From contig NZ_JAOVZB010000006.1 of assembly GCF_025716875.1 (NCBI RefSeq), forward strand, positions 1 to 64,000: DNA of 64,000 nucleotides. Direction: 5' to 3'. The DNA is from Marinomonas sargassi (GTDB lineage: Bacteria > Pseudomonadota > Gammaproteobacteria > Pseudomonadales > Marinomonadaceae). Of this stretch, positions 26,606 through 50,160 are shown piece by piece; the stretch's first letter is position 1; each line of letters begins with the position of its first letter. The notes under the pieces are model-generated. The model worked only from the letters and a program-made list of their open reading frames with translations. It did not search any database and was not told the origin of the DNA. A program made the translations under genes and the position numbers.

Positions 26606-26661
26606 ATCGCGCCACAGAGACAGCACATCGTTTGATGTAAATTGTTTTTGTGGCAGTCTGT

Positions 26662-26736
26662 TGGGGTATAGCCAAGCGGTAAGGCAACGGGTTTTGATCC
26701 CGTCATGCGTAGGTTCGAATCCTGCTACCCCAGCCA
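26662..26736 (+). tRNA. tRNA-Gln (UUG), copy 1
   Basis: 75 nt with encoded CCA. The acceptor arms TGGGGTA/TACCCCA pair; the anticodon loop TTTTGAT gives UUG; the T-arm contains GGTTCGAATCC. Confidence 0.96.
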
Positions 26737-26747
26737 TAACAGACAAC

Positions 26748-26824
26748 GGCTATGTAGCTCAGTTGGTTAGAGCACATCACTCATAATGATGGGGTCACTA
26801 GTTCGAATCTAGTCATAGCCACCA
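26748..26824 (+). tRNA. Elongator tRNA-Met (CAU), copy 1
   Basis: 77 nt with encoded CCA. The acceptor arms GGCTATG/CATAGCC pair and the anticodon loop CTCATAA gives CAU. The sequence is nearly identical to E. coli elongator tRNA-Met, including the variable loop GGGGTC, so it is not the initiator or an Ile-CAU type. Confidence 0.94.
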
Positions 26825-26835
26825 ACTCGATATGT

Positions 26836-26910
26836 TGGGGTATAGCCAAGCGGTAAGGCAACGGGTTTTGATCCCGTCATGCGTAGGTTCGAATCCTGCT
26901 ACCCCAGCCA
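26836..26910 (+). tRNA. tRNA-Gln (UUG), copy 2
   Basis: 75 nt, identical to copy 1 by eye, with encoded CCA. Confidence 0.96.
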
Positions 26911-26940
26911 TCGATATAATTTAGAACAACACGTAATTTA

Positions 26941-27017
26941 GGCTATGTAGCTCAGTTGGTTAGAGCACATCACTCATAATGATGGGGTCACTAGTTCGAA
27001 TCTAGTCATAGCCACCA
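26941..27017 (+). tRNA. Elongator tRNA-Met (CAU), copy 2
   Basis: 77 nt, identical to copy 1 by eye, with encoded CCA. Confidence 0.94.
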
Positions 27018-27044
27018 CTTCTAAGTTAAATAATTCCTATCTTT

Positions 27045-27119
27045 TGGGGTATAGCCAAGCGGTAAGGCAACGGGTTTTGATCCCGTCATGCGTAGGTTCG
27101 AATCCTGCTACCCCAGCCA
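27045..27119 (+). tRNA. tRNA-Gln (UUG), copy 3
   Basis: 75 nt, identical to the other two tRNA-Gln copies, with encoded CCA. Last member of the alternating array; no clear terminator follows. Confidence 0.96.
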
Positions 27120-27165
27120 TTTAAATAATCATTCAAGCCAGCATTCATAATCCTTGCATAATAGC

Positions 27166-37184: not shown

Positions 37185-37881
37185 CTCTTACTTGTATAGA
37201 ACCTAAATGTTCAACCCAAGCATGCATTTCATCACCAGCGACTACCGCTCCAACATTTTCAGGTGTGCCTGTCATAATCAGATCACCGGGGCGTAGCTCA
37301 TACACCTCTGACAACTTACATATGACCTCTTCGATAGACCAAGTTAGGTTAGCAATCGAGCTAATCTGTTGAGTCGCTCCATTCACCTTCAACCCAATCT
37401 CCGACTTTACTAGCGTTTCAGATAGAGCCTGAGTATGCAAAACAATTGGGCTAATGGGGGCTGATTGGTCAAATGATTTACCTACCTCCCATGGACGACC
37501 TTTTTTCTTCGCCTGAGCCTGTAGGTCGCGGCGAGTCATATCTAGCCCTACGGCATAACCTAAAATAGCGTTTTTCGCTTCTTCAAGGCTCATATTTTGG
37601 CCACCCTTACCTAGAGCAACAACCAATTCAACCTCGTATTCAAATTGCTTGGTTGCCATTGGGTAGGAAATCTCTGCGACTTTTGAGAACTCAGTAGGTA
37701 CAACACAAGAAGCATCTTTGGCAAAAAAGAAAGGTGGATCTCTATCCGGGTCATCCCCCATTTCCCTAGCGTGTGCCGCGTAGTTACGACCAACACAAAA
37801 AACACGCCCTACTGGAAAAACAGCGTCATCATCTAAAACAGGTAAATAAACCCTTTCTTGCTTAGGAACAATACACTTCAT
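37174..37881 (-). CDS. Fumarylacetoacetate hydrolase (FAH) family protein
   Basis: 235 residues, the single-domain FAH type that includes acylpyruvases and fumarylpyruvate hydrolase (YcgM-like). The metal-binding pattern is visible in VGRNYAAHAREMG, EYEVELVVALGKGG and GLDMTRRDLQ; TGTPENVGAV near the C-terminus is the typical closing motif. The enzyme splits C-C bonds in beta-diketo acids in this family, but the actual substrate is unknown and no pathway neighbours hint at it. GAGG lies 6 bases before the ATG. Confidence 0.85.
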   Translation of the reverse strand: MKCIVPKQERVYLPVLDDDAVFPVGRVFCVGRNYAAHAREMGDDPDRDPPFFFAKDASCVVPTEFSKVAEISYPMATKQFEYEVELVVALGKGGQNMSLEEAKNAILGYAVGLDMTRRDLQAQAKKKGRPWEVGKSFDQSAPISPIVLHTQALSETLVKSEIGLKVNGATQQISSIANLTWSIEEVICKLSEVYELRPGDLIMTGTPENVGAVVAGDEMHAWVEHLGSIQVRVTN

Positions 37882-48413: not shown

Positions 48414-48484
48414 CATTTATTGGTTGTGTATGTAATTCAAGATATCAATATACAAGGCACTACTACTTTCAAATAGGAGTAAAT

Positions 48485-49465
48485 ATGAGTGTGGTCATTT
48501 CCAAACTAGAAGAACAAAAACAAGTAAATGGGTTGGATTTTCCTTTGCTAGTCACACCTCACAATGAAGAAGTTCAAGCGGATACATCGAGCTTTTTCCA
48601 GTGGGTCAATAGTAATAAGTCTGAATTACACGACTTACTAATCAAGCACGGTGCCGTATTATTCCGTGGCTTCCCTGTAGACAATTCTGATAAATTTGAG
48701 CAAATGCTTAATGAAACAGACTACAAGAATATGCCTTACGTTGGTGGCGCTGCACCTCGCTCACAAGTAACCGAGTCTCGCATTGTTACAGCTAACGAGT
48801 CCCCTGCTACAGAAAAAATCCCCTTTCATCATGAAATGGCTCAAGTACCCACACCTCCTGGCTACATTTATTTTTACTGTGATATTGCAGCAGAAAAAGG
48901 CGGTGCTACCTCAATATTGCACTCAGGCGAAATATGCAAAACCTTCTTTGACATTGCTCCCGATTTTGCAAAGAAAGTAGAGGAACAAGGCGTACGTTAT
49001 ATTCGAGTCATGCCTGAAGTCACAGACACCACATCCGCTATTGGCCGTTCTTGGAAAGACACCTTTTTGGTTAATACTCGTGAAGAAGCCGAAGCTAAAA
49101 TGCGTGAAGCGGGCATGTCATGGGAATGGTTAGAAAACGGTAATGTACGTACAGAAACCCGTGTATTGCCTGCTATCCGCTATGATGATGAAACCCAACA
49201 GAAAGTCTTCTTCAATTCTATTGTTGCCGTATTCACAGGCTGGAATGACGATAGAAACCAAGGTGAAACCGCTGTATCGACTGCAGACGGTGAGTTCATG
49301 GACAAAGAAGCCCTAATGGAATTGGTCTCAGCCATGGATGAAAAATGCGTTAACTTCAAATGGCAAGATGGTGACGTACTGTGGATAAACAACCATACTG
49401 TGCTCCATGCTCGCCAACCCTTCGAAGGCGACCGCCGTATTCTGGCATCTATCGCCTTTAAATAA
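48485..49465 (+). CDS. TauD/TfdA-family Fe(II)/2-oxoglutarate dioxygenase
   Basis: 326 residues from an ATG with AGGAG five bases upstream (the longer frame from 48386 crosses repeated promoter motifs and is rejected). Iron ligands appear as H115 and E117 in PFHHEMAQ and H308 in VLHARQPF; R317/R318 in GDRR would bind 2-oxoglutarate. The HxE variant instead of HxD recalls clavaminate-synthase-like members. RGFP and the hydrophobic strands of the jelly roll are typical. The substrate is unknown. A separate promoter region with three direct-repeat elements precedes it and a terminator follows. Confidence 0.88.
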   Translation: MSVVISKLEEQKQVNGLDFPLLVTPHNEEVQADTSSFFQWVNSNKSELHDLLIKHGAVLFRGFPVDNSDKFEQMLNETDYKNMPYVGGAAPRSQVTESRIVTANESPATEKIPFHHEMAQVPTPPGYIYFYCDIAAEKGGATSILHSGEICKTFFDIAPDFAKKVEEQGVRYIRVMPEVTDTTSAIGRSWKDTFLVNTREEAEAKMREAGMSWEWLENGNVRTETRVLPAIRYDDETQQKVFFNSIVAVFTGWNDDRNQGETAVSTADGEFMDKEALMELVSAMDEKCVNFKWQDGDVLWINNHTVLHARQPFEGDRRILASIAFK

Positions 49466-49481
49466 AGATTTAAGAAGATAT

Positions 49482-49519
49482 AAAAAAGACCAGATAGCCT
49501 CAACTATCTGGTCTTTTTT
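49482..49519 (+). terminator. Terminator after the TauD-like gene
   Basis: AAAAAAGACCAGATAG pairs with CTATCTGGTCTTTTTT (to 49519), 6-nt loop, T-run. Confidence 0.88.
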
Positions 49520-49560
49520 ATTCGACGTTCCATGCTGGAATAAATACTTAAAGGTTCGAA

Positions 49561-49596
49561 TTTACTGGCTTTGAGAGGTGCATGGCCTAGTTAATT
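49561..49596 (+). repeat. Inverted repeat, left arm
   Basis: 36 bp containing GGCTTTGAGAGGT and CCTAGTTAATT. The same sequence, with about five differences and one single-base gap, is present in opposite orientation at 50054-50088. The pair encloses one membrane-protein gene. Confidence 0.7.
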
Positions 49597-49608
49597 TTGA
49601 ATTCAGAG

Positions 49609-49965
49609 TTAATCATTCCAATCCAATTTATTTAAGTAATAGAAAAAAATAAATGTCGTCCAGATAAGAGTCAGAACCCCTGATATTAAAACAAGCTGAT
49701 AATAATCATAAGTAACCCCCATTCCGATTAAAGTGACACCTAGAATTGTCTGAATTATTAATCCTACTAAAAAAAGCCTATCAAATTTAGCAAAATGAAG
49801 AATATCTTTTCTTAGCATCGCAATGGTTGCACATATACCAATTATTATTAATTTAGTATTGAGTAAAAATATTCCAGCTATTAAATGATTCATTCCCAAT
49901 AAACCTGTACACCACAATGGAGCTGCATAAGCCAGCCCCCATTTATCAGAATATATATTATTCAT
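49609..49965 (-). CDS. Small four-helix membrane protein of unknown function
   Basis: 118 residues from the ATG at 49965 (124 if the ATG at 49983 is used). Four hydrophobic segments: about 12-35, 37-50, 64-82 and 87-108; short loops. I do not recognise the family. Base composition is more A+T-rich than the neighbouring genes. The gene is the only one inside a pair of 36-bp inverted repeats, suggesting mobility or local inversion. A 21-codon frame ends inside its first codons (49958-50023) and may be translationally coupled. Confidence 0.6.
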   Translation of the reverse strand: MNNIYSDKWGLAYAAPLWCTGLLGMNHLIAGIFLLNTKLIIIGICATIAMLRKDILHFAKFDRLFLVGLIIQTILGVTLIGMGVTYDYYQLVLISGVLTLIWTTFIFFYYLNKLDWND

Positions 49966-50023
49966 AAAAACCACTCGCTTCATTCATTAATGCCCCTTGA
50001 ACTTGGCCGGTTGCATCAATCAT
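49958..50023 (-). CDS. Very short frame overlapping the membrane-protein start (gene remnant or leader)
   Basis: 21 codons beginning MIDATGQVQGALMNE; the reading frame is open further upstream to a stop in the right inverted repeat. It ends 8 bases into the membrane-protein gene, the geometry of translational coupling. The composition looks like real protein, so it may be the remnant of a larger gene or part of a dispersed repeat. There is no good ribosome-binding site. Confidence 0.3.
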   Translation of the reverse strand: MIDATGQVQGALMNEASGFYE

Positions 50024-50053
50024 AACCCTAAAGGATGTCGAATCATTTCTGGT

Positions 50054-50088
50054 AATTAACTAGGCATTTACCTCTCAAAGCCTGTTAA
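50054..50088 (-). repeat. Inverted repeat, right arm
   Basis: Reverse complement of the element at 49561-49596 with few differences. The pentamer AAGGT occurs just outside both arms (49551-49555 and 50092-50096), a possible but weak target-site duplication. Confidence 0.7.
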
Positions 50089-50094
50089 TATAAG

Positions 50095-50160
50095 GTGCTC
50101 CACGCCCATCTACCCTTCGATAGCGACCGCTATATTCTGGCTTCTATTGCTTTTAAATAA
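50095..50160 (+). pseudogene. Decayed 3' end of a second TauD-like dioxygenase gene
   Basis: 66 bp aligned without gaps to the end of the TauD-like gene (49400-49465), 54 of 66 bases identical including the TAA stop. It translates as PFDSDRYILASIAFK at its end, against PFEGDRRILASIAFK in the intact protein. No upstream coding sequence remains; the right inverted-repeat arm begins 6 bp away. This indicates loss of a duplicated or homologous gene, probably linked to the repeat-flanked insert. Confidence 0.75.

Follow-up and report, generated by a model that had tools for sequence, protein, structure and literature searches.

Back-to-back solo ends of a RAYT-type transposon family around one accessory gene in Marinomonas sargassi: a probable relic of transposon activity

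The locus lies in the window, the whole 64,000-nt stretch of Marinomonas sargassi DNA that was analysed, adjacent to an intact gene for a TauD/TfdA-family dioxygenase (tauD; 48476-49465, plus strand). Between tauD and the locus is a terminator with a 19-bp stem (49480-49521). Two short inverted arms follow, the left at 49558-49596 (minus strand) and the right at 50054-50090 (plus strand), and the 457-nt spacer separating them holds one gene. Abutting the right arm is a decayed duplicate of the tauD 3' end (50090-50160, plus strand), 71 nt long and 80% identical to 49395-49465. No such duplicate was found behind tauD in the sister species examined, and the tauD-sulfatase neighbourhood was found in none of the relatives examined. 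A search of Rfam gave no match. Elsewhere in the window, a direct repeat at 26657-27129 extends over about 300 nt at 85% and includes an 81-nt portion at 99%.

The gene between the arms (49609-49983, minus strand), referred to below as the cargo, encodes a predicted four-helix membrane protein of 124 aa, or of 118 aa if read from an internal ATG at 49965. It is the only clear ORF between the arms and has a GC content of 0.304 against 0.416 for the window, in agreement with the initial annotation, made from the sequence alone, which described a single A+T-rich gene there. The same annotation named a four-helix membrane protein; AlphaFold2, run without an alignment, returned four long helices, but with low confidence only (pLDDT 65). 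No convincing relative of the cargo was found in Pfam, NCBIfam, PHROGs, PADLOC or the PDB, in plasmids, phages, viral contigs or genome contigs (close search), or in the genomes of 55 relatives, 369 members of the class and 390 members of the order, where two matches with E of about 0.01 are at chance level. Confidence regarding the function of the gene is low. The internal ATG of the cargo overlaps the stop codon of a 30-codon open tail (49958-50050, minus strand; RNDSTSFRVMIDATGQVQGALMNEASGFYE followed by the stop), the overlap reading ATGAATAA, and the right arm cuts the tail off. It is a possible remnant of a toxin tail; no homologue of it was found.

The arms (49560-49596 and 50054-50089 as aligned) are 36-37 nt long and inverted, with 86% identity over 37 columns and one indel, much as the initial annotation had it, and one arm retrieves the other with an E of 4e-4 in a search across the whole 3.1-Mb genome. 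With the arms and gene together as query, the genome (3.14 Mb, 12 contigs) yielded several copies of the arm and no second copy of the gene or of the arm-gene-arm arrangement. The arms resemble both ends of a transposase-bearing element on contig C7, RAYT element 1 (L010 5683-5726 and 7005-7048), as well as the 5' ends of a second one, RAYT element 2; the left arm is 97% identical over 37 nt to the 3' end of element 1. As their sequence agrees with the termini of transposase-bearing copies, the arms can be assigned with high confidence as solo ends of a RAYT/TIRYT element, the right one inverted relative to the left and with a 1-nt deletion. An autonomous RAYT/TIRYT element has an HUH Y1 transposase between its ends; none is encoded between or beside the arms. 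The initial annotation had likewise seen no transposase and proposed a search for a matching one elsewhere, and two were found, on C7 only (C7:223952-224923 and C7:280161-281132). Of the readings offered there, two opposed copies of a dispersed repeat is the one borne out, and the arm sequence is not confined to this locus, with copies on C7 and also on C6.

An end model, R1, finds nine good ends in the genome: the two in the window, six at the two RAYT loci and one solo end on C6. All nine but the C6 site, namely both window arms and the six ends on C7, also served as training rows of the model. The left arm, itself a training row, is the top match in the genome at 39.8 bits; the right arm scores 26 bits. 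A genus-wide position weight matrix trained without the window also places the left arm as the top site of the 64-kb window (15.0). A further site of the end matrix lies at 37256-37283 on the minus strand (13.4 bits), where about one per window is expected by chance. The C6 solo end (L079) has no transposase in its vicinity; its truncated leader of about 115 nt stops at the 3' terminus of a gene. There, solo leader and end (L079 5162-5270; G000 C6, ~355161-355269) encode the last codons of a 365-aa ORF, apparently changing its C-terminus.

RAYT element 1 (L010) comprises a 324-aa transposase gene flanked by 44-nt inverted repeats (89%), and RAYT element 2 (L011) a second copy of the transposase with three truncated 5' ends in tandem beside the element. 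The transposase is a Y1 enzyme of the REP-associated kind, an HUH single-strand nuclease; matches to Pfam Y1_Tnp and NCBIfam REP_Tyr_transpos fall below the cut-offs, and in the alignment the NHxH motif is conserved and YVDLNP invariant. By these features it appears closest to TnpA_Y1 subclass 2.3 as defined by Quentin et al. 2018 (PMC6006769), with which it shares YVDLNP, a length near 325 aa, the presence of several diverged copies in a genome and occurrence in Alteromonadales and relatives. The HUH motif differs, being NHLH, NHTH or NHIH here and NHYH in the table of Quentin et al. Of 48 genomes from the genus, 41 contain the family, a single genome giving as many as 33 matches, and relatives occur in Colwellia, Shewanella, Pseudoalteromonas and others. 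The surroundings of the two C7 elements are themselves repetitive. Near element 1, a nudix hydrolase gene is repeated in part: incomplete local copies (80-92%) of its 5' end and leader lie at L010 2334-2590, 3411-3530, 3594-3705 and 7048-7298, one of them directly abutting the element as another local duplication. The 9-mer TTAAAGGGC is repeated in tandem about ten times at L010 7280-7382. The second RAYT array is abutted by a GTPase-like ORF and partners (L011 7686-9791), one of which has a long Lys/Glu/Arg repeat; PADLOC was negative for the two ORFs tested.

The terminal inverted repeat of the family was defined on 74 full Marinomonas copies. Its core is RGACACCCA and its consensus motif aatTaaaCAAGACACCCA. 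In these copies the 5' motif was in the proper orientation in 59 cases and wrong in 2, in most cases preceding the start codon by 73-82 or 104-109 nt, and the 3' motif was proper in 53 and wrong in 9, mostly 187-255 nt after the stop. Since the matrix was built from those same copies, it was tested out of sample on 67 copies from other genera, where the 5' motif was proper in 53 against 1 wrong and the 3' motif proper in 59 against 2. From outer edge to outer edge most elements measure about 1.19-1.34 kb. Quentin et al. found no flanking repeat for subclass 2.3, whereas the RGACACCCA repeat stands at fixed distances from the gene in Marinomonas and in most other copies tested. No earlier description of the end sequence, or of the abundance of solo and tandem ends, was found in the open-access literature, and both seem to be new for this transposase family. 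The statement in the initial annotation that no described element with such ends is known seems sound for the end sequence, as far as can be searched; the element type (RAYT/TIRYT, TnpA_Y1 subclass 2.3) was already known.

Several known systems resemble the arrangement in part. TIRYTs and TIRtrons, the names given by Di Nocera et al. 2013 (PMC3733652) in connection with transposase genes that have terminal inverted repeats, likewise carry a tyrosine transposase between such repeats, and single, paired and grouped repeat copies occur elsewhere. Their consensus is GGGGWSAS rather than RGACACCCA, and the window pair faces outward, with a gene between its ends and no transposase. REPINs, or REP doublets (Bertels and Rainey 2011, PMC3116915), are also inverted pairs of a RAYT-associated repeat without a transposase. 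The window pair differs from these in its reversed orientation, its 457-nt gene-holding spacer, mostly weak hairpins and the absence of the GTAG tag. Canonical REPs are marked by a stable hairpin with GTAG or GTGG at its base. No such tag was found in the arms, and the ends as a class have no convincing hairpins (z-scores of five ends from -2.9 to +0.4); the ends are therefore not REPs, and a canonical REP or REPIN was rejected.

In complete elements the AATTAAC/GACACCCA edge is outermost and the gene lies on the opposite side. In the window the left arm reads GGCTTTGAGAGGTGCATGGCCTAGTTAATT toward the cargo and the right arm is its mirror image, the inner edge of the arms being the GGCTTT side. 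Both outer edges thus point to the cargo, the reverse of autonomous copies, whose outer edges point away from the transposase, and it follows that the cargo is part of neither element. The lost elements would have had their interior left of 49558 and right of 50090. On the inner side of the left arm, a remnant of element interior, the leader upstream of the transposase gene, is found at 49542-49557 (minus strand), so that some 15-20 nt of leader are still attached. Window positions 49542-49599 align at 86% with RAYT element 1 across its leader and 5' end (L010 6989-7046) and at 76% with the corresponding part of element 2, and the L079 solo end aligns with 49539-49613. Neither the orientation nor the extension of the left arm into the leader was recorded in the initial annotation, nor was the duplicated tauD tail.

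These alignments also account for the AAGGT letters noted beyond both arms. The copies are present (49551-49555 and 50092-50096), but the left one falls in the stretch that aligns with the RAYT leader (compare L011 and L079) and the right one in the decayed repeat of the tauD 3' end. AAGGT as a target duplication is therefore out.

A non-autonomous mobile cassette, as first suggested for the locus, would move as arm-gene-arm, mobilised by RAYT transposases encoded elsewhere in the genome. Matching transposases are indeed present in trans, the inverted repeats surround one A+T-rich gene foreign to relatives, and outward pairs around accessory genes recur. A MITE- or REPIN-like derivative should, however, keep the end orientation of the autonomous element, with both ends inward, and here that orientation is reversed, which leaves the cassette unsupported. 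AAGGT is no target duplication, no second arm-gene-arm was found in the genome, and the gene was not found in the 55 relatives or the 369 class and 390 order genomes. A cassette with the arms as its own ends is very unlikely and was dropped as the main reading on orientation. The other early suggestion, an invertible segment with the arms as recombinase substrates, has in its favour that inverted arms flank a gene, but an indel and several substitutions distinguish the two arms, which also occur singly elsewhere and are ends of elements; inversion is extremely improbable.

Outward-facing ends recur in the genus. In 77 RAYT neighbourhoods (1.11 Mb; matrix at 12 bits or more), 442 end sites were found against 22 after shuffling. 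Pairs can be grouped by orientation. Inward pairs, those of the element type, number 73, and 58 of them have RAYT sequence inside. Tandem adjacent pairs number 271 (137 '<<' and 134 '>>'), many with ends 20-150 nt apart, solo ends in tandem being very common beside RAYT genes. Outward pairs number 36 across the 77 loci, RAYT sequence lying inside only one of them, and it is to this class that the window pair belongs. They hold single genes and small operons, and their ORFs have lower GC than ORFs outside end clusters (p=0.002; for ORFs shorter than 800 nt, p=0.0004). Pfam matches among 44 outward-pair proteins, the window cargo included, comprise Ntox50, ToxN, Deam_C (a deaminase domain), Barstar, FRG, GNAT, GFA and DUF998, alongside ordinary metabolic genes; the enrichment of conflict genes is an impression only. 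Four sister species have outward-facing RAYT ends that enclose toxin-like C-terminal fragments with small, immunity-like ORFs behind them (L073 9977-12084, L077 5148-7437, L093 9040-10252 and L141 8532-10519).

The cargo could on this account be an immunity protein against a membrane-acting contact-dependent toxin of which the right-hand end left only the last 30 codons. The overlap of the tail stop with the cargo start (ATGAATAA) is in keeping with such an orphan module, as are the similar anatomy of L093, L077, L141 and L073, with toxin-like tails ahead of small ORFs between RAYT ends, and the Pfam matches to Ntox50, ToxN, Deam_C and Barstar within outward pairs. Orphan cdiA-CT/cdiI arrays with transposases are known (PMC4927057); like the window they have a small ORF behind a truncated ORF tail in a transposon-active region, but no CdiA-like sequence was recognised here and no homologue of the ORF was found. 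In L093 the order is a RAYT end, a truncated ORF tail, an overlapping small hydrophobic ORF that is apparently multi-helix, and another end; no similarity was found between this small ORF and the cargo. A TPS/CdiA search of the M. sargassi genome was empty, but its control was silent too, making it uninformative. The geometry of a tail with an overlapping ORF occurs at 7.4% of 446 ends and at 13% of random positions, and so was rejected as a general signature of ends. With no homologue found for either tail or cargo, an orphan immunity gene is doubtful.

The locus looks like a relic of transposon activity rather than a new mobile cassette. The preferred reading, to which a probability of about 75% is given, is that two solo ends of subclass 2.3 RAYT elements stand back to back around an accessory gene and most likely no longer move. 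The cargo would be host or acquired DNA outside both elements. Elements of the family probably landed on either side of it, bracketing the gene, and afterwards lost their bodies with the ends left in place; the duplicated, decaying tauD 3' end marks the right-hand breakpoint. We infer this order of events, the loss of the element bodies and the present immobility of the arm pair, and confidence in the history of the locus is moderate. Against it, the genome has only two other full-element loci and one solo-end locus, so that relic ends of independent origin on both sides of one gene, 457 nt apart, would be coincidental unless a single event links them. Such an event, in which one element copied ends to both sides of a neighbouring gene, much as in the genus's arrays of tandem solo ends, or an inserted array with passenger DNA collapsed by repeat recombination, is a tentative possibility. 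Tandem solo ends are very common by RAYT genes (137 '<<', 134 '>>'), L011 has three truncated 5' ends by one element, and RAYT element 1 and the window locus each have local duplications beside them; but tandem arrays usually have one orientation, the window pair is inverted, and no intermediate was seen in the genome.

Under the preferred reading, an apparently nameless mobile cassette becomes the relic of a known kind of transposon, and a transposase subclass gains an end sequence that the published survey missed. Knowing the ends makes it possible to test where cleavage occurs, how targets are chosen and how the large arrays of solo ends arose, and whether the ends contribute to moving or dismantling toxin-immunity modules. 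A wider proposal would be that subclass 2.3 RAYT terminal repeats multiply as solo and tandem ends, and that in Marinomonas outward pairs enclose short low-GC accessory genes, including toxin-immunity modules, and contribute to their shuffling, the window being the smallest form with one gene between two ends; in this generality it is unlikely. In a sister genome (G028), a 3.28-kb tandem duplication at L064 3546-7035 is bounded by RAYT N-terminal fragments and carries a RelB/RelE-like pair and IS fragments.
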